Position numbers and translations under genes: made by a program. Of a stretch of DNA of 64,000 nucleotides, positions 317-35,602 are shown in pieces. How positions within the stretch are numbered: position 1 is the stretch's first letter; every line of letters begins with the position of its first letter. Location: the NCBI GenBank assembly GCA_905250025.1, contig CAJNOJ010000206.1, forward strand, positions 62,001 to 126,000. The letters are read 5' to 3'. The notes under the pieces were generated by a model. The model was not told the origin of the DNA and ran no database searches. It worked only from the letters and a program-made list of their open reading frames with translations. Origin of the DNA: Adineta ricciae. Lineage: Eukaryota; Rotifera; Eurotatoria; Adinetida; Adinetidae.

Positions 317-789
317 CTTTGTTTGATGTAACCAATGAAATGTTTCAGTTATTCGCTTATGGGAATTTCCTCTTCTTCGTTTCCTTCCCTTTTTTGTATA
401 TAAGTATTTGCATCCTTATAAATAAATCATTAATTTCTAACTATCAAACGATATTCTTTCGATTATACAAGAATCGACCTAATGACACTAAAGAGATGTG
501 ATGGGACATGCTCAGTCCTTTATCCCTGACCAATATATCGAGTATATAACGTGTGGGACACAAGTTTTGCATTATTTTTGCTTTTGGTATTATTTGACAA
601 CGGAAAATAGTAGAAGTTTGAATTTTTTCTTGTTAGAAAAAGTGACGTTTGTAGTGCAGAAATATATAGAAAAATCTAACTGACAAAGCTTCAGGAGGAC
701 TGCAAAAGTTTCAGAACACTAGAGAGTTAAAAATGCTTCTACAACTTTTGGCATTTTTTGTACCAGAAAAAAGATAGTTTTAGTCTAAC

Positions 790-1412
790 TGTTCTTTTGG
801 ATATGGAAATGGTTCATTTTCTAATAAAATAATATATCCAGTTGGTACTCTTCCACTTTCTGTCGCTATAGGTTATATCAATAAACGACTTGATGCTACT
901 GTAGCAAATTCAGGTGAAAGTTCCATATAGCTACAATGTTTGGTTGTTCAAATTTAGTCTTTTGAAAACAAACAACTCGTTTAACTGGTAACAATTCTCG
1001 ATCACAATCATTTGTTATCGATGATTTTAACAATGATAATCATAGTGATGTTGTTGTAGCGAACACAGGCACTGATAATATTGCCGTTTTTCTTGACCGC
1101 GGCGATGGTTCATTTGCAAATCGAACAACATATTCAACTGGTTCATCTTCATCTCCGTATTCTCTCTCTGTAGAATATTTTAATAAAGATGCATATCTCG
1201 ACATAATTGTTGCTAATTATAATAATAATAAAGTTGGCGTTTTTCTAGGACGTAGTAATGGAATATTTGATATCGTTATGCTTTATTCAATGTCATATGG
1301 ATCTCATCCATCGTCACTTGTTGTTGCCGATTTTAGCCGCGATAGAAAGATGGATTTTGGTGTAATAAATAATGGTACTGACAGTTTTAGCATTTACTTA
1401 CAAACTTGCTAA
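790..1412 (+). pseudogene. Decayed FG-GAP/VCBS repeat gene
   Basis: Two blocks carry recognisable FG-GAP units. Around 790-933, in one frame, a YGNGSF...YPVGTLPLSV unit leads into VANSG. From 966 to the TAA at 1410-1412, in another frame, there are further units with DFNND, DVVVAN, LDIIVAN and ADFSRD motifs, ending in a terminal IYLQTC. The two blocks are in different frames and about half a repeat is missing between them, so I read this as a broken gene. It resembles the C-terminal end of the repeats in the gene at 3463-6732 and may be a relic of a paralogue. A 44-nt GT...AG segment (about 915-958) could be an intron but does not restore the frame. Confidence 0.7.
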
Positions 1413-1702
1413 TTGAACAACTTTTTTTTGTCTATCTTCTATTTGTTCAAAGATCTTCCGATTAAGAGCAATTTTAGTGGATGAAAATAACTCAACAAAA
1501 AAACAATAAGATATCATTTTCGACGCTAAAAAATCCGTGTCGATGAATATTTCTTTATGACGTCATAGATGACGTCAATTCATTGTTCGATGCGCAGTGC
1601 AATAAGTAAAAGAAAGAATATTATTTATAAGTAAATCATCAATAAGTGAGATGATTTCATTTGTTTTTATGTGAAAAATTGTGATATTTTCAGTTGGTAA
1701 AG

Positions 1703-2299
1703 ATGGAAATTGCGATTCTTCTGGTTTTATCTGCGATGTTGGTGCAAATGGGATCGTTGGCAACGGATGTTTCGTTTGAAAATTGTGAAAATGCATTTTT
1801 CGATATGAGTGCGAGAGCGAAAGAAACTGGTTGCTTGGAAATTGGAGAACAAGGAGCGAGATTTTGTTTTCTTGGGGAACAAGTGACGAAGAGATCTGCT
1901 CGTTCTCTCTGTTTGAACCGAAAAAAACGAAGCGAGTAAGAGAAAACTTCGAAATTATTCTTTTCAAAATATCTTCGTTGACAGTGAAAGTGAAAACACC
2001 GATTGTCAACATTCAGAAAGTCCAGATGGAACATTATGCGTCACTCCGGACTTCATCTATCAACTCGGCGAAGCTTCTGCTGAGAATTGCACAAAGATTA
2101 ACAATAACAAACAAAAATGCGTTGGACATTCGGTAATTATCACTTGCAATGATAGTATGTTCGAAAAATCTCGATATTCCTCGTCAAAATGCATCATTTC
2201 CTAGGTCAATGGACAATCACACAAGTTTGTAACAAAGGAACAAAATGTCAACAACGACCAAAGTCAAATTCGAATGCCTTCTGTGCACCGAAAAATTAG
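1703..2299 (+). CDS. Secreted cysteine-rich protein A (three exons), possible CBM19-like chitin-binding fold
   Basis: Exons 1703-1935, 1985-2154 and 2205-2299 (introns of 49 and 50 nt, GTAAGA...ACAG and GTATGT...CTAG) join in phase to give 165 residues. The first ATG is at 1703. The protein starts with a signal peptide (MEIAILLVLSAMLVQMGSLA), then a Cys-containing segment, a basic RKKRSD stretch that could be a furin-type cleavage site, and a C-terminal cysteine module with the pattern KCxGxxxxxxC-x4-QW-x5-C-x3-T-x-C. That spacing recalls CBM19-type chitin-binding modules; this is inference from pattern only. An AATAAA lies at 2333-2338. The convergent gene at 2391-3021 has identical architecture and intron phases (2 and 1), so the two are paralogues in tail-to-tail arrangement. 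Confidence 0.75.
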
Positions 2300-2390
2300 A
2301 ACAGAGGAGAACATTGATCATTTTGATTTTTAAATAAAAAGGCCTAACTAATTTATTTATTATTTGCTGAAATTTTATAGAAAAATACAT

Positions 2391-3021
2391 TTAGTTCTTC
2401 TGTTGAAGCAACGTTAATGGACTTAACAATCCACAGACGATATTTTTAATCAATCCGAAAAGCGATAAACACATAGTTCCCGACGGACACAGTTGTTCGA
2501 TGGTCCATTGACCTAAATTAAAGGAAACAGCAAAATCTCTCTCGCCCTGTTTCTCTTTGATTTGCAAAACATACCCAAACTACAAGTAATCGATGTGATC
2601 AGTCCAGCACATTTCTGTTGACCTTGATTATACGAAGTACACGGTGTGGAAGCGGCTACGCCGAGTTGATAAATGTAATCATCAGTGATACACAACGTAT
2701 TTTGAAATTTCGTCGAATAAACACAAGTGCTATTGTCGTTACTAGTGCGCGAAAAAATATCAAATGAAAGTTTGTTTTTTGAAAATTCTTCTCTTACTCG
2801 CTGCGTTTCCTTCGATTACTTCCTTGACAAAGACGAGGAATACTGGCGATAAAAGTTTGATAACCTCGATTACAATTTTCAGGCGAGTCAGGGTGAGATG
2901 CTTCACATTTATCTCTTGAAGCTTCCGCTTTCGCTGCGTACTCATCGGCACATTTTGAACCACCCGATGCGAGAGCCAGTAATTGCACAAATATTAGAAT
3001 CAAGACGATGGCGATCTTCAT
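2391..3021 (-). CDS. Secreted cysteine-rich protein B, paralogue of A
   Basis: Exons 3021-2798, 2741-2575 and 2512-2391 (introns of 56 and 62 nt) give 170 residues. ATG at 3021 begins a clear signal peptide (MKIAIVLILIFVQLLALASG). The mature part is Cys-rich, with an RRKRSD basic site at the exon 1/2 junction exactly where protein A has RKKRSD. A shared core (LC-x4-D-IYQLG...KC-G...ITC...QWTI-x2-C-x2-GT-x-C) follows. The two proteins are well diverged outside this core, so the duplication is not recent. Its 3' end is only 92 bp from that of gene A. Function is unknown; a secreted binding or defence protein is possible. Confidence 0.75.
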
Positions 3022-3462
3022 CGATGAGAAAAACGAAGTAATGTATTTGAGTAGATACTATTCTTTTTCTTCAATGTCTTATTTATAAATAAATCACCTT
3101 TGTTTTACTAGTTGCACTTTTTTCGATCTAAACAACAATCGATTGGCGTCATCAAGTATTGTATCTTTAGAACGAATTTGACGTCACCTATTTCTCATTT
3201 TCTCTATCTCTGATCAATTTTCGTGGAACAATTATGACGTTCAGATGGAGAATCATCACGAGAAATCGAACGATTCTTTGTGAACTTTGAGGGTAGAAAA
3301 TGATGTTGAAAGAGAGAAAAAATCATCCATGCGTACTATCAACAAAAGAAAATTATTTGGGCACACGTGTTTCGTACACGCAGTGTGAGAGCGTTTATTC
3401 GTCAGAAATTAACACGACGAATAAGTTTTGCTTATTCATCATTTAGAAAAGTATTCACTTCA
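3022..3462. promoter_or_regulatory. Divergent intergenic region between protein B and the ART-FG-GAP gene
   Basis: No coding signal is seen. The 441 bp separate two head-to-head genes, so they probably hold both promoters. The frame of the right-hand gene is open back to 3367 (from a GTG), but the first ATG is at 3463. No motif I would name is visible. Confidence 0.3.
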
Positions 3463-6400
3463 ATGGAAAACCATGACACTGAAAGACTAGTGGAAAGAAG
3501 AAATGGACAATCTCGTCCAGTGGAATTAGCAACGATCGAACTCAGTGATGTGAAAATCATAGTTGAAAATGTCGATGATCCATCGGACAATTCTCTAGAG
3601 AAAAATCATCGATTAGTGGAAACGAAAAGTGGAGATCCAATTTCAATGACTACAAATATCATCAACGGTCTTAAGTTAGAATTAAGTCCGGTTGTCGGAT
3701 ACGCCGCAGAACCTTTATTACCACTTTCGAAAGCATGTGCTCCACTGGATTCAATCGTCTACAATTTATCGAATCATATCAAAGTAGCATTGGATCAAAC
3801 ACCAGAAGAGCCGCCGAATGGATTAACCATCGATGAAAGTGCTGCTATTCGTCTGTATACGATGGAAGGTGAAATGCCATATCCGAGTCTCTATTGGATG
3901 CTTAATCAAGCTCTTATGGAGAATAATCGCGAGAAGCTTCGTCCTTATTTAAAATATCTCAAATTATTGTTGACTGCTCTTGTTAAATTGCCATGCAATC
4001 CACAACGGACTGTTTGGAGAGGAGTAACGAAAAATTTAAGTGCAGATTATCCTGTCGGTACTAAAGTAACATGGTGGGCATTCTCATCATGTACCAACGA
4101 AATGAGTGTACTTACCAATGACATTTATTTGGGTAGTAACGGGAAGAGAACGTTGTTCTCTGTAGAAGCGATTAATAGTCGATCAATTACTGCTCATTCG
4201 AGTTTTCCCAATGAAGATGAAATTATTCTTCTGCCTGGAACACATATGGTTGTTCAATCACAATTGAGCCCGGCAATCGATCTTCATATTATTCATTTGA
4301 AACAAATTTTACCTGACACAGTCTTGTTGGAACCACCATTTAAAGGTATTTTCCCCATTTTTTCATTATTCTATTTCAATTGAAAGTATTCGTTTATCTA
4401 GATGCTCATGTTTATCCCATAGTAAAGTAAGTTTTGGATCCTCGATGCTTTTCAACCTAAAACTTTGCCTTCTGTTTATCAGACGTGAATGGTATCGAAA
4501 GAAAAGATTTGCTATTCCAATCTTCCTAGCAGTTATTGTTACTATTATGGTGGTAATTCTTGGCTCTGTTTTAGGAACAAGATCTAACTTCAAACCAACA
4601 GGTACGAGTACAGCCTTAGTATCCTACTTCAACATCGTTTTCTTTTAGCGTATGTGTGTGATGCACCATTCAATGTTCCATTTGCAACACCGGATACTTA
4701 TAAAATTGGGCAAAGTCCAGTTTCAGCCACCCTAGATCATTTTATGGACGGACAAAACTTAGACATGATGATCGTTCAACAGCAAGCTAACGACGTTACG
4801 ATGTTAGTTAGTAACGGTGGTGGAACTTTTCACATTCCGATCTATCCAGTTGGCAGAAGTCCATACTATGTCATAACAGCTGATTTTAACCGCGATAAAA
4901 TACTTGATCTGGCGGTGACAAATTCAGGTGATGGCACTGTCAGTGTTCTGCTGGGAAACACAAACGGCACTTTCCAGAGTCAGAAAAACTATCGAGTCGG
5001 CAGTCTACCAATGTCGATGGTATCAGCTGATTTTGATAACGACACGAAATTAGATGTGGCAGTGATCAATTCTGGCGACAACACTGTTAGCGTGCTACTG
5101 GGTAATGGATACGGAACCTTTCCGATCCAGACGAAATATCCAGTCGGCAGATTACCATACTCTGTGATATCGGGTGATTTTAATAATGACAAAAAACTTG
5201 ATCTAGCAGTAGCTAACTCGGCTGATGGTACCGTTAGCGTCCTGCTGGGCAACGGATATGGAAGCTTCGAAATGAAGGGTAATTATACAGTTGGTCGAAA
5301 TCCATACTCTGTCATATCGAACGACTTTAATAATGATCGAAAGTTGGATTTAGCAGTGGTCAATTTTGGAGATAATACGGTCAGTATTCTGCTGGGAAAT
5401 GGAGACTCGACCTTTCAAACTCAAATCAATTATACAGTGGGAAGTTTGCCACAATCGTTGATATCGACCGATTTTAACAATGATACGAAACTTGACCTAG
5501 CAGTGGCAAATTCTGGCGATAACACCGTTAGTGTATTGTTGGGTAATGCGGATGGAACCTTTCAGAAGCAAGACATTTACACGTTTGGCATTTATCCGTA
5601 CTCCGTTATAGCAGCTGACTTCAACGATGATAATAAACTTGATCTCGCAGCAGCCAGCTTTGGGGACAATACAATCATTTTGCTCCTTGGCAATGGAAAT
5701 GGAACGTTCCAGAAACAAAGTAGATATACAGTGGGCAAAAGTCCCTATTCTGTTATATCGGGTGATTTTAATAATGATAAAAAACTCGATGTAGCGGTAA
5801 CCAATTCTGGTGAAGATACGGTGAGTGTGCTTCTTGGTAATGGACACGGAAGTTTCGAGACTCAGAAACATTACTCCGTTGGAAATTTACCACAGTCAGT
5901 GATATCAGCAGATTTCAACAATGATAACAGCATTGATGTCGTAGTAACGAACTATGGCGACAACACTGTGAGCATCTTGCTTGGCAATGGAAATCGAACT
6001 TTTCATGCTCAAAATATTTATAAAGTTGGCACGAGTCCATATGCTGTCGTATCACGCGATTTTAATCGTGACAGTATACTTGATCTAGCAGTAACCAATT
6101 CAGGTGATGGCACCGTTAGTATCTTGTTGGGAAACGAAAATGGAACATTTCAGATTCTGAATAATTATACTGTTGGTAGAAGTCCATATTCCATCGTAGC
6201 AGGTGATTTTAATCATGATGGAAAACTGGATTTAGCAGCAGCCAACTATCAGGACAACGCCGTCAGTGTTTTGCTGGGTTATGCGAATGGGACCTTCGGA
6301 TTACCGACGAACTACACGGTTGGCAGTCTGCCATATTCTATAATAACAGCTGATTTCAACAATGACAACAGACTGGATTTGGCAGTGGCTAATTATGGAG

Positions 6401-6732
6401 ATAATACAGTCAGTGTTTTGTTGGGCAATGGAGATGGAATCTTCCAGGCTCAGCACAACTACACAGTTGGAAGCTTACCACAGTCGCTAATATCGGTTGA
6501 TTTTAACAATGACACAAAACTCGATCTAGCCGTAGCTAACTCGGGTGATAATACCGTTAGTGTGCTGTTGGGTAATGCGGATGGAACATTTCAGGCTCAA
6601 GTCAAGGGTACGACTGGTACTGCGCCAATCTGTGTGCTCTCTGGCGATCTCAATGGTGATCAGAAACTTGATCTGATCGTTGTCAATGTTGTATCTGCTG
6701 ATGTGTCGATTTTTTTGAACAGATGCAAATAG
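3463..6732 (+). CDS. Single-pass membrane protein: ADP-ribosyltransferase domain + TM helix + 14 FG-GAP repeats
   Basis: Four exons (3463-4345, 4402-4426, 4483-4601, 4649-6732) join in phase through three short introns (56, 56 and 47 nt) into 1036 codons. Residues ~100-295 are an R-S-E class mono-ADP-ribosyltransferase: R186 in VWRGV, FSSCT at 207-211, and E251-x-E253 (EDE) followed by ILLPGT. There is no signal peptide. A basic stretch (REWYRKKR) precedes one hydrophobic helix (~312-334), so the predicted topology is N-inside: enzyme cytosolic, C-terminus extracellular. From ~350 to the end are 14 units of 49 residues with Y-x-VG-x3-P, DFNND-x2-LD (integrin-like Ca2+ loop) and VLLGNG-x-G-T-F; 14 units would suit two seven-bladed propellers. 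Units 6 and 13 are almost identical. The 25-nt second exon is the weakest part of the model. ART and FG-GAP families are known separately; their joint role here is inferred. Confidence 0.8.
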
Positions 6733-6828
6733 ATTGACCACTTTATTTTCGAACAGATGCACTAATTGTTGATTACAAGATAATAATTATATGTTTATTT
6801 TTCGTTTGATTTAAAAAAAAATAATCTC

Positions 6829-6849
6829 GAGGGTGAGGGTGTGGGTGAG
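6829..6849 (+). repeat. Interstitial telomere-like G-rich tract (copy 1)
   Basis: A short run of GAGGGT units ending in GTGTGGGTGAG lies just downstream of the ART-FG-GAP gene. It includes TGTGGG, the unit I recall for bdelloid telomeres. It is too short to be a telomere. Confidence 0.4.
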
Positions 6850-7076
6850 AATATTCGTAACAGAGAAAGCAATACTCACACTCTCAAATGAGTTAAAATA
6901 AAATAACACCGAAACACGGCTTGACGCAATGTCTTGAAATACAAATGCATTCTAATTGATAGTGTTGGTATTATAGTTCATCTATGGTCTTGGTCGAATC
7001 GTGATTAGATCAGTTAATGAAACGGAAAATGAAAAATTTGAAATAAAAGGTACAAAATCAATGATTAGTCTTATTT

Positions 7077-8696
7077 TCAAAATCGTGTGGATTTGATATG
7101 ATTTGATGATGCAATATATTTGATTGATATAATTTTATCATTATCATTAGATATGTTCTTCTCCGTTTTCATATAAGTTTGAACAGGTGATAGTTTATGA
7201 AGTATATAATATAAACCTCCACTAACAATCATACCGAGAAAAAAATTCAATTGATACATTTTAGTAATTATAGATGGAACAGATACACCGATAGCATTAA
7301 TAAAACCAAGAATATTTATTAATATTCCAGCAATGTAAGCAATATATGCTCGCCAATTAATGCCATATGTATAATAATATAGGCCACTACGTGATCCAGA
7401 AAAAAGTTCATTTGTTTCCAGATGTTCATGTCGAACAAGATAATAATCCGAGAGTATAACGCCAACAATAGCACTGACAAATGTTGAATAAGCTGATAGA
7501 TAAGAAATAAATGACGAAGAATTAGAAAGTAAATGCCATGGACAAATACAAAGACCAACAATTGAACAAATATAACCAGATCGTCTCATATTTAAATATT
7601 TTGGACAAATAGCTGTTAAATCACAACCAGCAGAAATACTATTAGCAGCAATATTAACACCTAATTGTGCTAAACAAAATGATAAGGATATTAAAAATAC
7701 ACAAATGCGTGTAATTAATGATGGAACATCATTAAGAAATGTATTTAATAAATCTAATGGATTCCATATTTCTTTTCCATAGATAACTTTTGATGATGAT
7801 CCTATAATTAAACCAATAAAACAAGTCATTGCAAATCCTACTGGAATAATAATTATTTGTGGCCAATAAGTGACTGATGGTCGAATAGCATATCTTGTAT
7901 AATCAGATATATTTACAATCACTGAAACACAACTAGATATACAACTCATAATTGCTGAAATCCATGTCCATATGCGGACACTTGATGAAACTTTTATTGA
8001 TGTCAAAGTTAATTGATGAAGGATAGGTCCTATACCATTTGATTTAATAACAACCCAAATGAAAAAAAATATACCAGCAATTGGTACAATAATAGCTTTT
8101 AATGTAAATAAATGACGCATCTTTTGTGCTGGAAACCATATTGCAATATTTGATAATGACCAAAATATAATAAACCCAATAAAATCTCGCGTATTTGTAC
8201 CTGATGAAATCGGAAATATATTTGGTAGATTGTTATATGAAGGTATGATAGCACGAATACAAATAACAACACATTGTCCGCCTATCCATGCTTGAACACC
8301 ATACCATATACAAGCAATTACTCCTCGATTAAAAACTGGCCATAAACTACCAAAAATTCCAAATGATGCCCGTCCAATAACTGGAAATGATATATGATAA
8401 ATAGCACCGATTCGACCCGAAATACAAGTAAATACGCCAATAATAAAAAAACCAAACCAAACACACATCCATGCTTCCCACCAAGATAAAACATTATCAT
8501 TTCCTATGATGGCACTAATTACCATCCATGTAGCAATATTAATTGCATCTGATAACCAAAATGCAATATAATTCCAAACACCCCAATAACGTTGTTCAGC
8601 TTCAATCACTTTCAAATCATCATTTTGAAGTATAGCTTTAATACCAGTTTGATGCCTTACTGTTGGATCTGCATAGATCCATCCAGGTTTACCCAT
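7077..8696 (-). CDS. NCS1-family nucleobase/allantoin-type transporter
   Basis: An uninterrupted 539-codon frame from ATG at 8696. The N-terminal WIYADPTVRH...EAEQRYWGVWNYIAFWLSDAINIATW pattern is typical of the purine-cytosine/uracil/allantoin permease family (NCS1), and twelve or so hydrophobic segments follow. Conserved-looking elements are GRIGAIYHISFPVIGRASFG, the FNRGVIACIWYGVQAWIGGQ helix and SVIVNISDYTRYAIRP. Length matches the family (about 500-600). It would import nucleobases, allantoin or related hydantoins with Na+ or H+ at the plasma membrane; substrate cannot be chosen from sequence. It has no introns, unlike its neighbours, and the Fur4/Dal4-like start hints at fungal ancestry, which is inference. 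It is transcribed opposite to the ART-FG-GAP gene. Confidence 0.9.
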   Translation of the reverse strand: MGKPGWIYADPTVRHQTGIKAILQNDDLKVIEAEQRYWGVWNYIAFWLSDAINIATWMVISAIIGNDNVLSWWEAWMCVWFGFFIIGVFTCISGRIGAIYHISFPVIGRASFGIFGSLWPVFNRGVIACIWYGVQAWIGGQCVVICIRAIIPSYNNLPNIFPISSGTNTRDFIGFIIFWSLSNIAIWFPAQKMRHLFTLKAIIVPIAGIFFFIWVVIKSNGIGPILHQLTLTSIKVSSSVRIWTWISAIMSCISSCVSVIVNISDYTRYAIRPSVTYWPQIIIIPVGFAMTCFIGLIIGSSSKVIYGKEIWNPLDLLNTFLNDVPSLITRICVFLISLSFCLAQLGVNIAANSISAGCDLTAICPKYLNMRRSGYICSIVGLCICPWHLLSNSSSFISYLSAYSTFVSAIVGVILSDYYLVRHEHLETNELFSGSRSGLYYYTYGINWRAYIAYIAGILINILGFINAIGVSVPSIITKMYQLNFFLGMIVSGGLYYILHKLSPVQTYMKTEKNISNDNDKIISIKYIASSNHIKSTRF

Positions 8697-9531
8697 AATA
8701 AGCAAATGAATAGATAAATTTTATATACAAACAATTGTTTTTTGTTATTTTCCTAATTTATATTTTAACCTTCGAAAAATGTAATGTTAAAGATTAAATC
8801 GAATTTATATATAATGTCAAAAGATAAAAATATTCGTCTATGTGAATAACTTCTCAATAGATCGATGCGTAGAACGGAGGAAGTGTAATATGTCATATTT
8901 TATTTTCATGAATTTCTTCTTTTTTTTCGTTAGAACACATTCGATATTTTTCTCGATTATTAGATTTTTCTGCTTTTCGGATGATGTTAAGAATATCACC
9001 TGGACGTCAATTTTCTGTTATGCAGTTGATTATCTAAATTCTTGAATAAGTCTTCTCAACTGCAGTTAGAATTAGCATACTTTTTGAATTTTTTACGAAA
9101 TGACTTATAGAATAATGAGCCAAAAAAGGACTATGACGAGATGTAAAAATAGAATCCAAGTTGTTATGGATGATTTCAGCAACAGAAAACATCTAATATG
9201 AATTGTTCGGTCGAGGATTAAGCGAGTCTGGCTCGACGAGCGTTACTTGTTATAAATGCTCTAAAAGATTTTGCTGAAAGCTGAAGAAAACGCGTATTCT
9301 CCTTTTTTCACAGGAATTTTAACAGATCTGACCAGTCTAAGTCGGAAAGTTTTGACATGGGTTGCTTCGACTGTTTGAAGTTTAGAAACGAAAAATCAGT
9401 AAGAATAAATTCGAGTGTTTGAGAAGATTGATGTGTCAATATACTATTTTGACTTTTACCCTCAACCTCAATATTTTTACAAGTCAAATTTACGTGAAAG
9501 ACATATAAAGCGAATCAAATAAAGAGAGTAA
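8697..9531. other. Intergenic, one short dispersed repeat only
   Basis: No convincing coding exon. The only structure noted is the 44-bp GTCGAGG...CGACGAGCG repeat at 9210-9253. The rest is AT-rich. Confidence 0.4.
9210..9253 (+). repeat. Short dispersed repeat S1, copy 1
   Basis: Consensus GTCGAGGGTTAAGCGAGTCT, then a few variable bases, then CTCGACGAGCGTTA. Other copies are at 20002-20050 (+) and 28225-28270 (-). The GAGTCTGGCTCGACGAGC part is partly self-complementary. Confidence 0.6.
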
Positions 9532-11146
9532 TTATTCGCGATAAGGAATCACATCGACAACTGGTTCAACTCGCCGTCGACGATGCATGATCAGATATTG
9601 TACTATTGTCATAAGGATAGGAACGATAACTTTGAATGCAATAGTCAGTCCGCCATAAAGACCAAAAATAGTGGTGATCATATATACTAGATTGACTTGC
9701 TCAATGATTACGTAAGTACACGAGGGAGCTGAACATGCCGTATAATAATTTTCATATATGATATTTGATTCCCATTGATCAATCATAAGCACATCAACAA
9801 GAGATTGAACAGTAACATTATGAGATGAGAGAGTCGGGTCGAGAGGACGAAAAGTTATATTCGAAAATTTCGTGACATTCTTTAGTCTATTAATACATGT
9901 AAGATCATAAAGACATTCAAGAGTTGATTGAAGAAGAGATTCGAGTGGATAACATCCGACAAGAAATCCAGGTATAATCCATTTATCAATGGTTGCCAGA
10001 GATGTACACGAAGCATTGATACCACATGAACAATTTTTGTTGCCATATGATCTAGGTGCCATGATTCCAAGACCATTCGTTAGTACTGATTCTATATACC
10101 AGTTAGAAGAAGTGCGAGAAACATATCCATTTCCATGAGCCACATCTCGAATGAAGTCGAGTCTACGCAAAAATGTTCGTGGTACCGATAATTGAAATTG
10201 ATCTAAAGCATTCCTCATTTGAGTATTGACAATGTTAAACGGTTCTGTTTGTTTACTAATGTACGTCTTCGAACGAAAAATAGATAAAGCGTTAGTAAAT
10301 GTATCGTTAGCTAGAGTACATAAGAAAAAAAAGCAATCGAAAGTGAGGTATGATAAAATACCAATAATCNCCTCTTGAAGAACACTCGCACCGCAACGTA
10401 AGGTTAAGGTGAAAAGGGATATCTGCATACAGGATGTTATGACCTATTATATTTATTATTTGAGATGTGGGTATTGCTGTTTGCAATGAATTGGCGTGGG
10501 TAGTCGTTAGCACTAGCTGAAGTATTTGAAGAAAATTTTTTTCTGTTGTTAATCTCAAAAATTTACTTTTCTCTTGAATGTAACTATTAAGATTGTCCTG
10601 TGTGAAAACAGACGGAGTAATAAGAGTTTCGGAGTCAAAATCATCGAGTGCATCATGAACTGATCTTTTAGCATGGAAACAAAGTGCAGCAAGTAATTGA
10701 AAATAACTACTAGCTAACACACGAAAATCAGGTTGGTATAACTTTCCAATATCGGAACTGAAAAAATGACGAATCCAATCATTAGTGACGAATACGCTCG
10801 AACACACAGGATGATAGGCGATCGCCGTTGAAGTAAAGTTACCATATGGAATCGTGATACGACTGCATGGGCATAATAGTTGCGCTAAATTTTTCTTGAG
10901 CAACGTTTGATAATTCGCTTCAGATGGATTCCTAATTATGATAGCTTCAGATTGAGTTTCTAATGAAATGAGTGCGACGAGAACAACGATGACGGCGAGC
11001 GTGAGAAGAGTCACATAGACTCGAGTGGAAATGATTGCAGTGCGTAAATGAAATTGATCTAAACGAGTTCTTTCGTCTTCAAACAAATTCAATTGTAACA
11101 CGAATGTCCGAATTCGATTAGCAATGTTGGCTAATGATTGCATCAT
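9532..11146 (-). CDS. Two-TM cysteine-rich membrane protein, frame interrupted near an ambiguous base
   Basis: Two overlapping minus-strand frames (11146 down to ~10428, then ~10428 down to 9532) make one protein of ~540 residues. The shift lies close upstream of the N at 10370. N-terminal ATG at 11146 is followed by a cytosolic segment ending RLDQFHLRTAIISTR, a TM helix (VYVTLLTLAVIVVLVALISL), and a large extracellular part with CPCS, paired Cys (CSCGINASC, CLYDLTC, CSAPSC) and many N-x-S/T sites. Near the C-terminus a second TM region (YMITTIFGLYGGLTIAFKVI onward) precedes a basic tail (HRRRRVEP). I recognise this as a common uncharacterised bdelloid family but know no function. The frame break may be a sequencing error at the N or a real mutation. 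Confidence 0.7.
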
Positions 11147-14641: not shown

Positions 14642-15730
14642 TTAGCAGTGAAAAAAAACCTCAACAGTACTTGTAGCAAGATTTGCCGTAACTAGATCAG
14701 GTTTGGAATCACCGTTTACATCAATGACTGCTAATGAGATTGGAGAACTGTTAGTTACGTAGGTAATGTGAGAAGAGAATGTGCCGTTGCCTGTGTTGAG
14801 CAAAACATTAATTGTATTTGCACCAAAATTTGCCGTTATTATGTCAAGCTTGCTATCCGCATTAACATCTCTAATTACTATTGACCTTGGAGCATCGCTA
14901 GTATTGTAAGCAATTGGAGAAGCAAATGTACCGCTGCCATTATTGAAAAGAACACTAACAAACTTTCCACCAGAAGTTGCAACAACTAAATCGGGTTTGC
15001 TATCAAAATTCAAATCTGAAATGGCTGTTGCGACTGGAGGATTGCTAAATGAGTAGGCAGTATGAGTAGGAAACGTACCACTGCCTGCATTGAGAAGTAC
15101 ACTAATTGTATATTCAGCATTATTTGGGGTAACTAGATCGGGTTTTGAATCACCGTTAATATCACCAATTGCTACTGAGAATGGACCATTGCCAGTTGCG
15201 TAGGCAGTTTGAGGAGAAAATATACCACTGCCTGTATTTAGAAGAATACTAACTGTGAGATCAGCAAAATTTGTTGCAACTATGTCTGGCTTGTTATCCG
15301 AATTTACATCGCTGACCGCTACTGAGTATGGATAAAGGCCAATTGGGTAAGTAGTTTGAGAAGAGAATGTGCCGTTACCCGTATTAAAAAGAACACTAAC
15401 TGTGTTGTTACCATAATTTGCTGTAATTAGGTCCGGCCTGCCATCAAGATTTAGATCACCCACCGCTACCCATTTTGGATAATTATCAGTTGCGTAGGTG
15501 GTTTGAGATGGAAATGTACCGGCGCCTGTATTGAGAAGAACGCTAACTGAGCCAGGAGCAGTAGTGCTTGCCGTGACAACATCAGGCTTCGAATCGTTAT
15601 TCAAATCAATAACCGCTATTGACTGTGGATTAGCGCCAGTTGCGTAAACGACCGAACTCAAGTACATGTTGTTGCATCCTATGAGATACAAAGTGATAAG
15701 AACAACTGTTAAAAGTACCAGAGTCAACAT
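14642..15730 (-). CDS. Membrane-anchored FG-GAP/VCBS protein with seven repeats
   Basis: A 362-codon open frame from ATG at 15730. A hydrophobic N-terminus (LTLVLLTVVLITLYLIGC) would act as signal peptide or anchor. It is followed directly by seven units of ~48 residues with Y-A-TG-x2-P-x-S-x-A-x2-D-x-N-x-D-x-KPD, TANxG-x-N-T-VSVLLNTG-G-T-F. Seven units fit one seven-bladed beta-propeller. The D-x-N-x-D-x3-D loops should bind Ca2+. Repeats use KPD where the ART-FG-GAP gene uses KLD, and NTG-G where that gene has GNG-G, so the two are not recent copies. No intron is seen; the leader could be preceded by a further exon. The LIGC motif resembles a bacterial lipobox, but lipoprotein processing is not expected here. 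Likely role is extracellular adhesion or binding. Confidence 0.8.
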   Translation of the reverse strand: MLTLVLLTVVLITLYLIGCNNMYLSSVVYATGANPQSIAVIDLNNDSKPDVVTASTTAPGSVSVLLNTGAGTFPSQTTYATDNYPKWVAVGDLNLDGRPDLITANYGNNTVSVLFNTGNGTFSSQTTYPIGLYPYSVAVSDVNSDNKPDIVATNFADLTVSILLNTGSGIFSPQTAYATGNGPFSVAIGDINGDSKPDLVTPNNAEYTISVLLNAGSGTFPTHTAYSFSNPPVATAISDLNFDSKPDLVVATSGGKFVSVLFNNGSGTFASPIAYNTSDAPRSIVIRDVNADSKLDIITANFGANTINVLLNTGNGTFSSHITYVTNSSPISLAVIDVNGDSKPDLVTANLATSTVEVFFHC

Positions 15731-16677
15731 GTGTCATCGACGTTTACTGTGTTGTAGATTTCTCATCATTCTATGCAATAAACTTATCAAGAATATTTTT
15801 ATATTGGATTGCACTATATGCTGGCTTTATTTGAATTTTCGATATCGGACTTCTGTCATGATTATTTTTTCACTTTTGTGGGAAATGCGTAATATCCTAC
15901 AAAACTCTGATCGATTTCAGTTCTGATTTTTGTCAGTAGTAGGACTTTCTGTAATTCTGCTGATTCTCTTGACGAAGAGCGCAGTCACAAATAGTGTACT
16001 TTGAGAATTCAATTCAACTGTAGCTTAGCTTGGATCCATTTAGAGAAGACTTTCTATATACCTGGTCATTACACAGAATCTGGGAAGCATCGGCATGACG
16101 CGCTAGTTCTTTACTGATTGTATCGAAGGTAGGAGCTACCTTTTGAACGCTTCAATAGACTCGTCGATCATCTTGCAGCGATAAAGTCACAGAAGAAAGC
16201 TTGCGCATAGATTTAGTAAAAAGCTGAATCGTATAAATTGTTAATTTCTGCAAATTCGACTCTTATTCGATGCGGCGATTTATAGAAAGGGTAAACAAAG
16301 ACTACATATGCTTATATGAAGCCGCGATCCAGAAAAACACGAATAATCACAAAAACCGTAATGTCATTATAAAAAACCGCTATGCTGAGAGTAGCTGAAA
16401 CCTTACCCTAATTATCAATATTTATCAGGTGACTTTCTCGTAGATCATCTTTAAGAAGGTTGCAAGTCTACTAGGAGTCTTGATTCACAAATTTTGCAAG
16501 TTTTCTACGTCACTTAACTAAATCATTGAATTTGTTTCGAAAATGGTAAGCTCTTTCTTTATTTTACTAATCTATAGGTGACTATTTCTTTTTTTTTGCA
16601 GATGTTTTGAGATTATAGTAATAGTAACATATTTTTTCGGTGTATAAAACGTGATAATCATTTAGTCTATTACATAC
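15731..16677. other. Intergenic, nothing recognised
   Basis: No coding exon or repeat I can support. It may hold the 3' part of the PAN-like gene on the minus strand, because that gene's second exon ends at 16678 with a donor-like GTATGT. Confidence 0.3.
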
Positions 16678-17685
16678 CGGTAGTTAGTAATGAGGTCGAT
16701 GATGTTGTTGTTGTTGTTGATGTCGATGATGACGTTGATGTTGCTGTTGATGATGAGGTCGAGGTTGTTGTTGACGTTGACGTTGATGTTGATGTTGATG
16801 AAGTTGATGATGAGGTTGAGGTTGTTGTTGACGTTGACGTTGATGTTAATGTTGATGACGTTGATGTTGTTGTTGATGATGAGGTAGATGATGAGGTTGA
16901 AGTTGACGTTGACGTTGATGTTGATGTTGATGAGGTTGACGTTGATGTAGTAGTTGGCTCTTTTTTGTGAAAAATAAATTAATTAAATAAGATAAATCAA
17001 ATGATGAGTCATCCTTAGGATTCGTTCGATTCATCTATTGAAGATATTTTGAACTCTTAATGAATTATGATAGTTTCAGAAGTATTTGCCGAACTATTCT
17101 TGCCCCTTACCAGCTAAGTTTGCTCAAAGTACGAACGTAAATTATTTCTACTCAAATTGTTTAGGATCTCGAAAGGAGAGTGTGAGTATGAGAGAACACA
17201 TCGAGCTATCTCTTCATTACCAACAACATCATCCTCAGCTTTAAGATGAGAATAGATGGGATGATTTAAAACTTCTACGGATCGAAGAATGCGACAAATA
17301 AAAATAAACTGGTTCATACATTTTATGATATACGGCATCGATACTTACCAGCTGGTGTTCGCGTGCCAGAAATGACCGTCATAGTAACAGTACCTATAGT
17401 TGCTTCCAAATAATCGTTTTGATTTACATCGTTAAGAAACAATTGACAACTGGAAGTTGATTGATGAAAACTTATAGATTTGCATTGAGTCTGTCCTAAA
17501 CAATTCCTTTGACACTGAAGACTAGTGGATGTTGTAATAGTAGTAAAGGGTAAACAAGTTGTTGTAGCGCACTGAAATTGCCATCCATTCATGATAGACA
17601 TCGTAAATGATCTTGCATCTTGTGTAATTACTTGATCAAAAATAACAATCAAAAATAATAATGACACTTTAGTCAACCAAATCAT
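16678..17685 (-). CDS. PAN/Apple-like secreted protein with Ser/Thr-rich linker (partial model)
   Basis: Exon 1 runs from ATG 17685 to 17349. It encodes a signal peptide (MIWLTKVSLLFLIVIFDQVI) and a compact cysteine module (GWQFQCATTTC...LQCQRNCLGQTQCKSISFHQ...CQLF) of PAN/Apple type. It ends in phase 1 at GTAAGT. A matching exon 2 (16959-16678) starts after an AG in the right phase and stays open for 93 codons of Ser/Thr (PTTTSTSTSS and so on), ending at GTATGT. That exon is the reverse complement of the GTTGAT microsatellite, so I read the microsatellite as a mucin-like, probably O-glycosylated linker. The ~390-nt intron is long for this genome and could hide another exon. The 3' end was not found. 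Confidence 0.55.
16696..16950 (+). repeat. GTTGAT/GTTGAC microsatellite tract
   Basis: About 255 bp of degenerate GTTGAT, GTTGAC and GATGAG hexamers with GTT runs. It overlaps the Ser/Thr-rich exon on the minus strand. Confidence 0.85.
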
Positions 17686-17715
17686 ATTTAACCAGACTTC
17701 TACTAGTTGGATCAA

Positions 17716-19465
17716 ATGGGTAGTATACAGTTGAAAAGGAAAAGGAAAATGAAAGCATCTACTAATGATGGACGTCCTATTATTTCTCTCTCTCTTATTC
17801 TTTTACTTTCTATAGAATTTGTTTTTTCATTTAGTTAATATGTTGAAGGAAACTATAATCATGCATTTTCTTCCTCTTTCAGTTAATAAACAGAATGTTC
17901 TTTTAAAATTTACTGCATTTTCTTAGCAGAGTTCTGACATTATCAAACTGTGAAAATCTATGATTTTATCTCGATCAATACGTAAGTGGTAGGTGAAGTT
18001 GAACATCATGTTCACACTTGTTGCATAAACGAACAGAGAGTAAAATCATAGAAAGATATTGTGTATTTAGAAGATTGAATTGAACACAGAGAACGGAAAA
18101 GTCTGATCATTATCAATCTTTCATCTTACAAGAATATGCGTCTACTTTTCTATGACATAGTGATGAAAAATGATTTCTGCAATTATAATACTAGAATGTA
18201 TTTATCAAAATTCTGTACATAATTTACGTAGATATTCTTGAAAACTTGTATTTAATTCCAATCTACCAACTATTTATTTTTTATCCATTTTCAGAATTAA
18301 TAATGATAAATTTTAGTAAAACAACAGAAATAAAATACAATTCAGAAAAAGACACTCGTAACAATTGACGATGTTAATCGATAGAAATAAATACTTCTTA
18401 TATTTATATGGAGTGATTATCATACAATTATCGGTTGAGACTCTGTATCCAAGTTATATTTCATATAGTATGTTTGATGCATTTATTATAACACATTTTT
18501 GGTACACAATGAGACAAAGAATTTGGCACTTCTGGCTTCTACTTTTACTATTTCACATAGTAGAAAAAGTTTGTTTAGTCTTCGGAATGAAGAAAACTAT
18601 TAATCAATGAAAGATACAGAGAATGTTTTTCTTTTTCTTCATTTGTTCTACTCTTGAGAAGTATCAAATAATGTAATAACAACTACAAAATCATAAAAGA
18701 AGTATTGTCAGCATGCATGATTATTTGGAGTAGAACTAGAAAATGATTTGAAAGCGTAGATATTTGTTTCTTCAACAGATTTTTGTCCATATCGAAAGAA
18801 ACTATCGCGGTGGATAACATCTTCTCTCGGAGTTTTATTTAAAAAAAGATGCTGTTCTTATGAGGGTGTGAGGAAGTGAACTTTATTCTTATACTTTTTA
18901 GAGAATTAGATAATCATTATGAAGCATGACAATATTATCAAGTATTTCGAGAAAAGAATATGCTCAATAATACATTTATTGGGTCAATCCATGAGGACTC
19001 ATCCACCTTTTGGAAAGTTTTTTTGTCGATTTTTTCGGCTCAAATATCCGATCTCGGTTAGAAAACACTTTTGGTGAAAAAATTGGGTCCTATCTGCGAA
19101 AAACCTCGAGTTTTTCAGCGTTTTTTCATACATAGAAAAAATGGCAGAAAAACGTCTGGAACTTTATCAACAGCTCTTTTTTCGGAATTGTCCGGTTTTC
19201 ATAAATATGAAACAAGTCTAGGAACATGTTTTCTGGTAGAAATTAAACTGACCTTATTGAATTTCATATATGGTAAGTCATTTTCTATGTATATGATAAT
19301 AGCCCTATTGCATGAGTGTGAATTAGATTCAATTAATTCGAAGAGATCTTATCTTATTTTCGTTGTAGAGTTATAAAGAAATTGATGTCATTAAATTTTG
19401 TCAGAAAATTAATCCTAAGTGATGAATTCTATACGAAAGAAAGCTTGTGCAGTGATGAAGAGAGC
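17716..19465. other. Gene-poor interval
   Basis: Only doubtful short ORFs. One at 18371-18610 (+), starting MLIDRNKYFLYLYGVIIIQL, is hydrophobic and has an ATG start but no recognised family. No repeat was identified before the TCGAAA block at 19466. Confidence 0.25.
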
Positions 19466-21481: not shown

Positions 21482-24400
21482 ATGTGTTCTTTATGCACAT
21501 TTTTACTGTCAAAATCAGTATTATTATTAAAAGGCGTTCAAAGAATGATTTCATTCGTATTGACTATGCAACTGTTTCTAACTGTTCATGGATTATTTCA
21601 TTTATATAAGACGGATATATTCAATATTTTTCAAGAAAAAGATTGTTTATATTCGTTTACAGTTGACAATAATTTCAATGAATGGCAATTAGTACCATAT
21701 TGTATCCGAAACAGTCTGATCTTCTCGGACGACAATGATGGTTTTTGTTATGGAGATCCGAATTATACATTTAAAGAGTTAAAATTAAAAGGTGTTAACA
21801 GTGATTATTTGTATAAATGGAATACACCGATTGATACAATGAATAGTTATGAAAAATATCGAAGTTTAAATGATTCATCACTTGAGACTCATCGTTATTG
21901 TAATTGTTCAGGTAATCATTCATAGAAATATGTCAATATTTTTTGTTATGAAAGATTCTATAAGTAGACAATTGGTTTGGCACTCGATGTCAATATTCAT
22001 TTAATCAGTCTATGCAAAACTTTGATGAAATTATTTCATTTCAATTCAAAGAAAAACAATCATTAAAAGAAAGATATGAAATTATCAATGATCCATCTTT
22101 GCTGACATGTTATGAAGGACTTCGTTGTCATTCAACAATTTGTCTTGATTGGCGAGAGATTTGTAATGGACTTTTTAATTGTGAAAATGGTGAAGATGAG
22201 CCTGAAGAATGTTTTTTACTTGAATTAAATGAATGTGAAAAGGATGAATATCGTTGTCGTATTGGTACGTGTATTCCAAGAACGTTTCTTGTTGATTTCA
22301 ATCCTGATTGTTCTGATTTAACCGATGAATATCTTACTTATGATGAGTATTTTCAAGATTCAGATTGTTATTTATCATCAACACTTGTCTGCGATAATCG
22401 TTTATGTAATAAGTTAAATGATTTTTCATGTGCAGATGGAGAGTGTCAAGAGATTTCAATGCAATGTAATAATGGTCGTGATCTGTTCCTTCGTCATAAT
22501 CTTTTATCATCATCTATGATGAATAACATTACTTTTCAATGTTGGTTTTTGATGCTTTGTTCATCAGGTGAAATCAATGTAAATTTAATGGGTTATAATT
22601 ATACTGATTGTCAATCTCCAGAAGATATTCCTGATAAATGGGATTATTTCGATTCTTTTCAACAAATCTGTTCCACGACATTTTGGTTCCAGGATGAAAG
22701 AAATCTTCTATATCCATTCACTCGACATCTATATCATAACAAAATATCGAATGATACAGCTTGGTGGGAGCCAACTCATATTTGTTACAATCAAAAGGAA
22801 TGTTCTAGCCTTCCCATTTCTAATTTATCATTGATTAATGATTGGTCATGTATCGATGTAGAACAAAATGGGATTCAATTTGATACATTAGAATTATATT
22901 TATTATTTTCATCCTGTTCTAAAACTCATCTATCATTGTTCAATGAAGATGATTCACTCTTTTATTGTGATGAATCGAGGAAATTCATTTCGAAATCTCG
23001 AGTATTAGATACTAAAAGCGATTGTTATTATTTTGAAGATGAAAATTTCTATTATAATTTTACTCTTATAATCCAATTGAATTTGACTGATCGTTTTCAA
23101 TGTTTATTCATTAGTCAATGGCTACCGCGTCCACTGGCTCTCGATGTTCGTTGTTTTCAAGATTTTGATAGATTAGGCCTCGGTAAATGCGATAGCAGTT
23201 CAGATATTGCATGTCTGTTTCTTCGTGATCAATACACACCGTCTATGAATTATATTTTTCGACAAAACTGTGATGGTATTATGAAATTTGATGGAGAAGA
23301 TGAAAATAATTGTGAAGAATGGCGTTCATATCGATGTGATGGTTATTGGGATATGATGAATGGAGAAGATGAATTGAATTGTACGAATACAGTTTATGGT
23401 TATATTACGCATGCAGTTTTTAAATGTCAATCAACTGAACATTATTGTTTTCATCCAAATGGTACTGTTAGTTGTTTGTCAAAAGATCGTGCTGGAGATG
23501 GATTTGTCGATTGTTTAGGAGGCACTGATGAAAGAAAAACTTTATGCCATTTTCCAGATTCAATTTTAGATTTTCAATGTTCTGATGGTAAATGCATATC
23601 AATAGATTATCTCTGTGATCAAGAAAGTGATTGTTTGGGAAACGATGACGAATTAATATGTTCATGGATATCGAATTCTACAAAAATTCCCTTTTCAATG
23701 TTTAGTTGTCAAAATTTAACGTTTATTTTGCGAGACAAAGTATGCGACAATATTATTGATTGTCAACCAAATGGTGAAGATGAATGGTTTTGCTTAATCA
23801 TATTTCTTAGACCATCTCAATTTGTACTCGAAAGACTAGAAGAATATCCCTATAGTACAACAAAATTGGTATCTTCTGATATTGACCACCATTCATCCGT
23901 ACGACAACAAAGACATATCGATACGAATTCAGGTTCAAATTCACTTGAAAAATGGTTTTGTAATCGAGGTATTATTGTCATTAAACGATCATCCGACATC
24001 GAATGTTTGTGCCCGTCAAGTTATTATGGTCGAAGATGTGAATATCAATCAGAACGTCTGTTAATTTCTATACGAATTACTACACCCGTTACTCTTCGTG
24101 GTCGTCAAAATAAACAAAATATTTTTCGTTTAATCGCTTGTTTGATATTCAATGATTCATTTGTAGATTATGAAGAAATTCTACATGTACCAATGATGAA
24201 ACAGATGTTTTATTTGAATTATCCACGACCGCCACCAAAACAACGTGGTAATTGGACGGTTCAGTTTTACGCCTATACTGTGACACGATATTCGGTCAAT
24301 TTTATATCTTCGTGGTTATTTGATGTACCATTTCCTTTTCTTCCTGTTAATCGATTAGTATTGGATCTTTTTTTGAAAGAACAAGAAACATGTTATACAC

Positions 24401-26319
24401 TTTCTTGTAAGCATGGCTCTTGTAGAAAATATCTTAATTTACCCTATCAAGAATATTGTCAATGTGAACCAAATTGGTTTGGTACTTATTGCAATGTTAG
24501 TTATCATTGTTTCTGTGCTAATGGAGGAGATTGTATCAGTAGAAACTCCATATCAATTTGTGTATGTCCTCTCGGTCGGATAGGTCGTGAATGTCATGTA
24601 TTATTTGATCCATGTAGCAATATAACATGTGAAAATGGAGCGACATGTTTGCCAATGGATGAACGCGAAACGAACAAGTTTATCTGTGCATGTCGTATTG
24701 GTTTTCGTGGATCTCGTTGTGAATTGAAAGATGCTCAGATGGACATTTATTTTTCAAAATCATTCATCTTTTATACTCGTTTATCATCGCCTGCGATTAT
24801 TGTTCATTTTCTCGAACTGCACGATCATTCTCCGGGAATTGCATTAACTCAAAATCGTGTAATACATAAACAAGTTCAACTAAACAAATTATTCCGTATT
24901 TATTATAATAATCATCAATATCTGTCATCTCTAATTCTTCTTGAAATCTTTTTTGAACCTCAAAACTTTCGTTACTATATTGCGAGTATTCTTAGCAATA
25001 ATATGACATATGTTACAACAACAATTAGCAATTCAAATCATTGTCCTCATATTGATGAAATAATTATGAATGAAACTATACGTCAAATGCCATTAGTAAA
25101 ACGAGTAAAATATTATGAATATATATGTCGAATATCTCGCAGTAGAATTTGTTTTATGGATGAAGTTCATCTTTGTTTTTGTGATAAATATGGTGATCCT
25201 GATTGTCTTGCACTTCAACGTCAATCAACAAATTGTCGAACAGATTATTGTCAAAATAATGGACAATGTATAGAAAATGAATTCAATGGAACTTGGGATT
25301 TTGGATGTGTATGTGGTCAATGTATTTACGGATCTCTATGTCATTTAACAACATCAGAATATGTATTTTCATTAGATATGATAATTGGTCAAGATATTCT
25401 TGAAAATGAATCATTGTCAATACAACCATCGTTGATTAAAGTCATTATGTCAATTCTTGTTCTTATGTTGATAATTGGATTCATTTCAAATGGTATATCA
25501 TTTATCGTATTTAAACAACCACGTGCTCAACAAACTGGTTGTGGAATCTATTTGTTTTGTCTCCCTATTATTGGTCAAATTGGATTATTATTTTTAACTG
25601 GTCGATTTTTCTATCTATTAGGAACACAAATGTCTATTGTTAATAATCGATTGGCTGCTCATTGGAGTTGTATTACACTTGAATATGTTTTGAATGTTTG
25701 TCCGATACTTTACGATTGGTTTACAACGTGCGTAGCTGTAGAGCGAAGCATTAATATCATCAAAGGAATTTCATTCAATAAATCAACTAGCGTTTGGTGG
25801 GCAAAACGTATGATTTTTTCTCTCATCATTGTCGTTTTAAGCAGTACATGGTATGAACCATTTATTCACCATTTAATTGATGATCCTCGAACGACAACTA
25901 CTCATACATGGTGTATTGTAACATTTCCCTGGTTATGGCTAAAATATTATCGATTAATAATAAATCTTATAAATCTGATTGTACCAGGTTCAATTCATTT
26001 GCTTGCTACTTTGTTTCTTCTGCATCGAACAACAAAAATAAAACAAATTTTAATAAAAGATCAACGTCAACGTCATTATTTTCGTTTATTAATAAAACAG
26101 CTTCCATTATATGGAAGTCCACTATTAGTTGTTACGCTTAGTTTTCTACGATTAATCTTTTCATTTACATTATCTTGTCTTACTTACCAATGGCAAAAAT
26201 ATCTTTATCTTACAGCTTATTTTATTTCTTTTTGTCCATTAATAATGACTTTACCAATGTTTGTTTTACCTGCGAAAATTTACAGGACAGAATTGAAAAA
26301 TTTATCTTATTTTCGTTGA
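21482..26319 (+). CDS. Adhesion-type 7TM receptor with LDL-receptor class A and EGF-like ectodomain
   Basis: Exon 1 (21482-21911) and exon 2 (21968-26319) are joined in phase 1 across a 56-nt intron, giving 1593 codons. The junction restores an EGF ending (CNCSDNWFGTRC). ATG 21482 is used for the outer limit, but ATG 21545 begins a better signal peptide (MISFVLTMQLFLTVHGLF). The ectodomain has LDLa modules near the N-terminus (C-x6-C-x4-C-x6-C-x5-C-x3-EDEPEEC) and more further on (FQCSDGKCISIDYLCDQESD, GEDEWFC), then EGF modules (CSNITCENGATC...CACRIGFRGSRCEL; CRTDYCQNNGQC). The last ~300 residues form seven hydrophobic helices, with VAVERSINI at the DRY position. Such LDLa/EGF-7TM receptors are expanded in bdelloids; ligand and G-protein coupling are unknown. 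It looks intact. Confidence 0.85.
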
Positions 26320-35355: not shown

Positions 35356-35602
35356 GGTGGTCGTGTCTTTGCGTTTAATTACACTACGGATTAAGAATGG
35401 CAATATATGTATAGGCGGTTTATGAATGGAAGAGTGATACTAGTTCATGTTAGACGGATTATATATACTAGAACGATAAACAAAGATTTTTACACAAACA
35501 GAGAATCCAGGGATAGAAACTGAACGGACGGATGAAGTAATCGAATTTTTTATTGGTGCTGACGTTTACAAAGGCTATGGTATGATGATATGATACGCTG
35601 AT

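Follow-up and report, generated by a model that had tools for sequence, protein, structure and literature searches.

A candidate type II ADP-ribosyltransferase with an FG-GAP propeller ectodomain in the bdelloid rotifer Adineta ricciae

A locus in the genome of the bdelloid rotifer Adineta ricciae raises the question of whether an enzyme of ADP-ribosylation can be held on one side of a membrane and a large propeller on the other within the same polypeptide, and of what such a protein would do. The locus lies at positions 3463-6732, on the forward strand, of a window of 64,000 nucleotides (contig CAJNOJ010000206.1, here C206, positions 62001-126000; assembly GCA_905250025.1). Its spliced product is a single frame of 1036 residues, which contains an ADP-ribosyltransferase (ART) domain, a single membrane helix, and 14 FG-GAP blades. 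The evidence as a whole is best explained, with a probability of roughly 0.55, by a type II receptor-like protein in which a ligand controls the ART, and which belongs to a bdelloid family with varied ectodomains.

Gene structure and domains of the product

The gene has four exons. Exon 1 (3463-4345) encodes a variable N-terminus that is predicted to be disordered (residues 1-69), followed by the ART domain (about residues 75-294). Intron 1 (4346-4401; 56 bases, phase 1) separates it from exon 2 (4402-4426), a micro-exon of 25 bases (DAHVYPIVK), which is followed by intron 2 (4427-4482; 56 bases, phase 2) and by exon 3 (4483-4601), the stem, with its basic flank and membrane helix. Beyond intron 3 (4602-4648; 47 bases, phase 1), the slot downstream of which the ectodomains of the relatives differ, exon 4 (4649-6732) encodes the ectodomain, with 14 FG-GAP blades of approximately 49 amino acids each, and the stop codon. 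All three introns are of the GT...AG type. The boundaries of introns 1 and 2 rest on the gene model, a second copy of the gene, and the paralogous loci, and those of exon 3 on the gene model and the paralogs. An earlier note, made from the letters of this DNA alone, had claimed three introns in exact phase, and the junctions that it named are exact, with phases 1, 2, and 1, in order, giving the frame of 1036 codons.

The second copy is found at C206:36341-39612, 29 kb upstream, and retains all of the exon boundaries. The two copies differ at 132 bases. No exon has an indel, and intron 3 has one of 2 bases, where the reading frame is unaffected. The ratio of nonsynonymous to synonymous substitution rates (dN/dS) between them is 0.09 over the 1036 codons. 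By part, it is 0.088 in residues 1-65, where a single residue of the 65 differs, 0.047 in the ART (4 of 229 residues), and 0.114 in the propeller (28 of its 694), while the stem is the most conserved part, with a ratio of 0 (none of 48 residues changed, at a dS of 0.16). Both copies are part of a directly repeated block of 9.7 kb or more, in which the window's positions ~589-10369 correspond to C206:33500-43200 with an identity of ~95%. This block could be a true tandem, or two haplotypes joined in tandem by the assembly, but in either case there are two diverged copies, with purifying selection over the entire fusion. Given that the exon layout is conserved in this copy and in the paralogs, a chance juxtaposition is excluded, and the four-exon gene is confirmed, at the level of sequence comparison, as real.

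The domains proposed in the earlier note were also recovered by profile searches of the product. The ART profile (PF01129) matches with 38.1 bits, against a curated cut-off of 22.3, and the catalytic R-S-ExE residues (R186, S209, E251, and E253) are intact. In an alignment of 34 rows (A1), Arg186 (codon 4018-4020), the R of the R-S-E signature, is invariant, as are S209, which provides the S, and T211 in the F-S-S-C-T motif (residues 207-211; 4081-4095), while F207, S208, and C210 are almost invariant, like E251 and E253 of the E-D-E sequence that forms the ExE motif (4213-4221). The predicted structure of this part has the ADP-ribosyltransferase fold, and the closest solved structure found is rat ART2.2; a search of the sequences of solved structures with the ART returned a single weak match (E 0.2). 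The gene is, by these features, one for an R-S-E class mono-ADP-ribosyltransferase with intact catalytic residues and predicted activity, the target of which would probably be arginine.

The ectodomain is matched by FG-GAP_3 (PF13517; 357.9 bits, 13 stretches) and FG-GAP (PF01839; 155.2 bits), and the count of 14 blades agrees with the double propeller that had been proposed. A D-x-[ND]-x-D-x-x-x-D loop is present in 13 of the 14 blades, and is degenerate in the first. Blades 1-7 (4696-5721) form a nominal first propeller, with a nominal point of ring closure, and blades 8-14 (5722-6723) the second. Among the seven complete ectodomain exons of the family, 14 blades are found in the window gene, its copy, and the genes on C255, C73, and C221, and 21 in those on C904 and C677. 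The C677 count (L061) was taken as 21 from 23 raw repeat matches, since an assembly gap is followed by a repeat of ~74 propeller residues, and an incomplete exon on C81 (17 repeat matches) was excluded. These multiples of seven point to two or three closed seven-bladed rings, and a double seven-bladed propeller in the window gene is thus supported, with two or three rings across the family.

The description of this propeller as integrin-like holds for the predicted fold, and fails for the sequence, which is an FG-GAP_3 array of a kind common in bacteria. A search of solved-structure sequences gave no match for the propeller at E 0.01, and the top Foldseek ranks for the double-propeller model went to proteins that have several propellers but are unrelated to it, SF3B and DDB1 among them; re-ranking of Foldseek's 1000 best chains with VIA-align placed integrin alpha first. 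In the sequence databases, 7988 of 7996 scored candidates matched the propeller. Among the 120 matches listed, identity is 33-52%, an organism is named for 11, of which seven are from bacteria and four from bdelloids, and not for the other 109, and none contains PF01129. The FG-GAP_3 profile also fires in three of 14 control genomes, all prokaryotes. A horizontal origin of the propeller is therefore plausible on sequence grounds, and no more than that, because repeats inflate such matches. An FG-GAP expansion in Adineta vaga is mentioned in part of PMC3846280.

Another FG-GAP frame is found in the window itself, on the reverse strand (14645-15733; 363 amino acids), downstream of an exon (17326-17802, reverse strand) that has a PAN domain (PF00024; 29.3 bits, with a cut-off of 21.4) and, as read by eye, a hydrophobic leader. 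Together, these look like a secreted PAN-linker-FG-GAP protein, and a locus on C197 (L057) is similar by eye. Upstream of eight other FG-GAP frames, no ART-like frame was seen by eye in the stretches fetched, and no search was run.

A family with varied ectodomains

The earlier note had described a single fusion. Instead, there are at least 28 such genes in the genome (130.5 Mb searched), and the ectodomain varies among their relatives. The ART exon has 137 matches, 37 of them with at least 53% identity, and 35 of these were examined, leaving out C73:330618 and a broken copy on C539 with three stops within the ART match. The ART, stem, and FG-GAP layout is present in 28 of the 35, all with the stem and with the R-S-ExE residues (27 by pattern and L059 by eye). 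The remaining seven include L019, with Cys-rich repeats, L038, with laminin-G, three loci that are interrupted by assembly gaps (L014, L037, and L060; the L014 row used the ART of the overlapping L013), and two (L040 and L058) without a stem and with an altered ExE region. Six more distant ARTs (L063-L068; 41-50% identity) have no FG-GAP repeats and no comparable stem. At least 150 matches to PF01129 were recorded in the genome (150 scored of 553 candidates).

The splice layout recurs as well. GT-AG introns were enumerated at 30 loci by scoring candidate exons 2 and 3 against those of the window gene, allowing their lengths and phases to vary within fixed limits. Exon 2 has 25 bases at 23 loci, 19 of them with phases 1-2-1 and four with another intron 3 donor; the other seven did not fit, two of them having no model. 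Of nine pairs of paralogs, eight have an ectodomain dN/dS that exceeds that of the ART; these values refer to the fetched parts only, with one gene common to two pairs, and exclude the mosaic pair L020/L021.

The fusion is also found in other bdelloids. When residues 1-362 were compared with 5.8 billion proteins, within lengths of 0.55-1.75 times that of the query, there were 53 matches, of which 46 carry an organism name, in every case Adineta, Rotaria, or Didymodactylos. Seven of the 53 combine PF01129 with PF13517, and three more have FG-GAP repeats behind an ART-like part. In other relatives, laminin-G, PAN, peroxidase, NHL, LCCL, or Cys-rich repeats follow a similar stem (WYRKKR plus helix), and a gene model of A. 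steineri (P0001) provides an example of a similar spliced stem in another bdelloid. A Kelch form among the public models (P0028) has no helix. Two genes of this genome with other ectodomains could be read at this point, the Cys-rich one on C142 and the laminin-G one on C211, and in both, as in the window gene, a phase-1 intron behind the helix precedes the ectodomain. This slot was read by eye in both cases; the C142 reading agrees with a public protein (P0004), and C211 had been mis-modelled by the enumeration.

A quick tree of 74 ART rows, with labels taken from Pfam listings and translations, requires 14 changes of ectodomain label, in comparison with a least possible nine and a shuffled mean of 36 (long branches were flagged, and P0044 was dropped as too short). 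Given its well-supported branches, laminin-G must have been gained or lost at least twice. A separate group (99% in the Shimodaira-Hasegawa-like approximate likelihood ratio test, SH-aLRT) contains 11 of the 13 stem-less rows, while L040 and L058 sit among the stem-bearing rows. The genes L020 and L021 form an inverted pair on C81. The two have in common a block of 929 bases covering ART and stem, with seven mismatches and with introns 1 and 2 included, which ends directly past the codons of the helix (L021, 1602-2530); outside it, the N-termini included, blastn returned no alignment. Their ectodomains, both of the FG-GAP type, are 49% identical, with a dS of 1.73 over 229 codons against 0.12 for the ART. 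The block of ART and stem thus spreads without its ectodomain, and gene conversion, with a breakpoint past the membrane helix, is the probable route.

Four other loci on C482 and C448 (L027, L030, L031, and L033) have ART blocks of 665-752 bases in common at 91-95% identity, with ectodomain regions that are unmatched at the cut-off, which is possibly further stem exchange. Among the stem-less proteins, P0043 (A. ricciae) joins an ART to an ADP-ribosylglycohydrolase (PF03747; 208 bits), a writer and an eraser in one protein. P0042 (A. steineri), in the mainly stem-less group, has a hydrophobic helix that differs from that of the stem, with Cys-rich CTDGVKNQDE repeats and then NHL repeats behind it, and is possibly a second, independent origin of an ART-helix-ectodomain protein. 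A further record (P0227), labelled Sphagnum balticum, is 61% identical to the window's bdelloid ART, and is probably rotifer DNA within a moss assembly.

Orientation in the membrane and rival explanations

The best hydropathy window of the product, with a score of 2.91, covers residues 312-330 (FAIPIFLAVIVTIMVVILG; 4508-4564), after the enzyme in chain order, and the net charge of its flanks is +5 before the helix and +2 after it, as expected from the single basic-flanked helix of the earlier note. There is no hydrophobic stretch at the N-terminus (which starts MENHDTERLVERRNG), although no signal-peptide program was run and a 5' exon may have been missed. The combination of one helix, a basic flank on its N side, and no evident signal peptide is that of a type II single-pass protein by computation, and the topology proposed earlier finds further support in the relatives. 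The flank on the ART side is the more positive in all 23 stems that were typed (mean +4.7 against +1.7), out of 31 stem-bearing loci; the eight omitted were mostly near-copies, and L037 had no readable C flank. One relative has 76 Cys beyond the helix and five up to the end of the ART, and the alternative ectodomains include PAN, LCCL, and laminin-G, which are extracellular domains. The FG-GAP frame at 14645-15733, with its PAN domain and hydrophobic leader upstream, points the same way.

The sequons do not favor an external propeller. The propeller holds 13 glycosylation sequons where 11.8 are expected, an absence of enrichment that counts against its exposure, and in the 120 listed FG-GAP relatives, pooled, sequons stand at 0.93 of expectation, while they exceed expectation in several laminin-G and LCCL relatives. 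Sequon enrichment was dropped as a topology test, being uninformative for the window's propeller. On the features of the sequence, a cytosolic ART with an extracellular or lumenal propeller is nonetheless very probable, and the plasma membrane would be the likely location.

The protein would in this case be a single-pass type II membrane enzyme, with a cytosolic mono-ADP-ribosyltransferase, a helix, and a double FG-GAP propeller outside or in the secretory lumen. The ectodomain might bind a ligand on the cell surface, in the matrix, or on microbes, and this binding, or the clustering of the protein, would position or activate the ART, which would then modify arginines on cytosolic targets close to the membrane. 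The ART-stem module appears to have been joined, at the phase-1 intron right behind the helix, to differing binding domains of the extracellular type. Ligand binding, signal transfer, and the control of the enzyme by the ectodomain would be parts of this scheme, and a role in recognition or defence is suggested.

The main rival of this ligand-controlled receptor is a tether without transmembrane control, in which the ectodomain serves only for anchoring or localisation, by adhesion to cells, food, or matrix, and the ART is constitutive under the membrane. This is a serious, if less favored, possibility, given that no regulatory domain was recognised in the cytosolic part, which consists of the ART and the variable, predicted disordered N-terminus, and that the ectodomains differ widely beside a similar stem. 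The varied ectodomain and its higher dN/dS in eight of the nine pairs fit recognition better, but not decisively. It is also conceivable, but unlikely, that the main product is soluble, with ART and propeller in one compartment. Exons 2 and 3 total 144 bases and form a symmetric phase 1-1 cassette, so that their skipping leaves the frame intact and a soluble splice form is possible, and there is no stem in four of the public models (P0011, P0016, P0033, and P0038). Against this, the stem is the part without a single residue change between the copies, and it is present at all 28 FG-GAP loci. The missing stems may, moreover, be annotation errors, since public models can fail at the micro-exon, and 15 short ones that were inspected stop within intron 1 or the micro-exon (this search was restricted to about half to 1.75 times 294 amino acids, and gives no error frequency). 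The micro-exon may be one cause of the architecture being overlooked.

Three other explanations were rejected. A reversed topology, with the ART extracellular and the C-terminal part cytosolic, would follow the vertebrate PF01129 enzymes, which work outside the cell, and the sequon counts of the ART half are above expectation in several relatives; the lack of a hydrophobic N-terminus, the uniformly more basic ART side, and C-terminal partners that are Cys-rich or typically extracellular make it very improbable. The decay of non-catalytic members is evident in the family, with the stops of the C539 copy and the altered ExE regions of L040 and L058, but the selection over all 1036 codons of the window gene and its copy, and the intact catalytic residues, leave it hardly credible for this locus. 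The mis-joining of two separate genes, or of chance neighbours, by the splice model has the smallest probability of all. The window's own fused protein is absent from the 53 matches, and its ART exon has no record of its own among the 120 best of 864 protein matches, which were short proteins only, but the identical exon layout in the second copy and most paralogs, and similar fusions in the public models of other species, contradict this view.

Known systems, significance, and neighbouring genes

The vertebrate ecto-ARTs (ART1-ART5) have their enzyme outside the cell, either as secreted proteins or on a lipid anchor. The window protein has no evident signal peptide, its enzyme precedes the helix and is predicted to be cytosolic, and a large ectodomain follows. 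The integrin alpha-chain, the best structural match of the propeller model, has a similar seven-bladed ring with loops of the Ca-binding type, but only one, in comparison with the two or three of this family, which has no other integrin domains. The order also differs, being ART, helix, and propeller to the end here, and propeller, legs, C-terminal helix, and short cytosolic tail in integrin. The bacterial FG-GAP_3/VCBS proteins resemble the ectodomain in their PF13517 repeats of ~49 amino acids, but, among the matches listed, lack the ART. The stem-less bdelloid ARTs, with leucine-rich repeat, kinase, tetratricopeptide repeat, ADP-ribosylglycohydrolase, or immunoglobulin partners, have PF01129 in the same animals, but most of them group separately from the stem-bearing genes.

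The closest parallel in layout is with single-pass receptor enzymes, such as the kinases, phosphatases, guanylyl cyclases, and plant lectin receptor kinases, which join a variable ectodomain through a helix to a constant cytosolic enzyme. What sets the window protein apart is its enzyme, an ADP-ribosyltransferase, and its type II orientation. Ligand-dependent ADP-ribosylation of cytosolic proteins is the preferred reading. We know of no described type II ADP-ribosyltransferase receptor. The ART, the FG-GAP repeat, and type II anchoring are each already known, and no paper on their combination was found. The claim that the architecture is undescribed stands for the literature searched, but not for the databases, which already hold such bdelloid proteins under the names "NAD(P)(+)--arginine ADP-ribosyltransferase" or "unnamed protein product".

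No description of the architecture was found in the available parts of the open-licence PubMed Central (PMC) literature, supplements excluded, and no such protein appears in passages of PMC3846280, PMC12220480, PMC5916493, PMC11258130, PMC8878817, PMC10809525, PMC3482391, and PMC4245714. A parallel idea with a different protein is found in a passage of PMC3482391, which notes that chordates and A. vaga have a cell-surface protein with another toxin-type domain, Het-C. Passages of PMC10809525 and PMC12220480 list ADP-ribosylation among the enriched processes of responding A. vaga genes, which is discussed in the latter, as far as the passage extends, in terms of poly(ADP-ribose) polymerases (PARPs). 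The large PF01129 family might be another source of this enrichment.

If the ligand-controlled receptor is correct, ADP-ribosylation would be an output coupled directly to a single-pass surface protein, beside phosphorylation and cyclic-nucleotide synthesis, and a well-known animal group would possess dozens of these proteins, differing in their outer parts. The family would also be a concrete case of exon exchange linking bacterial-type propellers to an animal enzyme, and the reading of A. vaga transcriptomes may change. A broader and more tentative view, possible but doubtful, is that bdelloids, animals without known sex, hold combinatorial "receptor ADP-ribosyltransferases", in which exon exchange and gene conversion of the stem would link the enzyme to bacterial-type propellers and to lectin-like, PAN, LCCL, peroxidase, and Cys-rich partners. 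The result might be a broad repertoire for surface recognition, with the ADP-ribosylation of cytosolic proteins as its signal, perhaps in innate defence or self-recognition.

The remainder of the window contains several frames of other kinds. On the reverse strand, 7080-8720 is an NCS1-type permease frame with a full-profile match (PF02133; 438.9 bits) and 547 codons without stops. An LDL-receptor class A frame of 1451 amino acids lies at 21964-26316 on the forward strand, and a FLYWCH zinc finger frame (34627-35439) and an NHL repeat frame (57447-58349) are found on the reverse strand.
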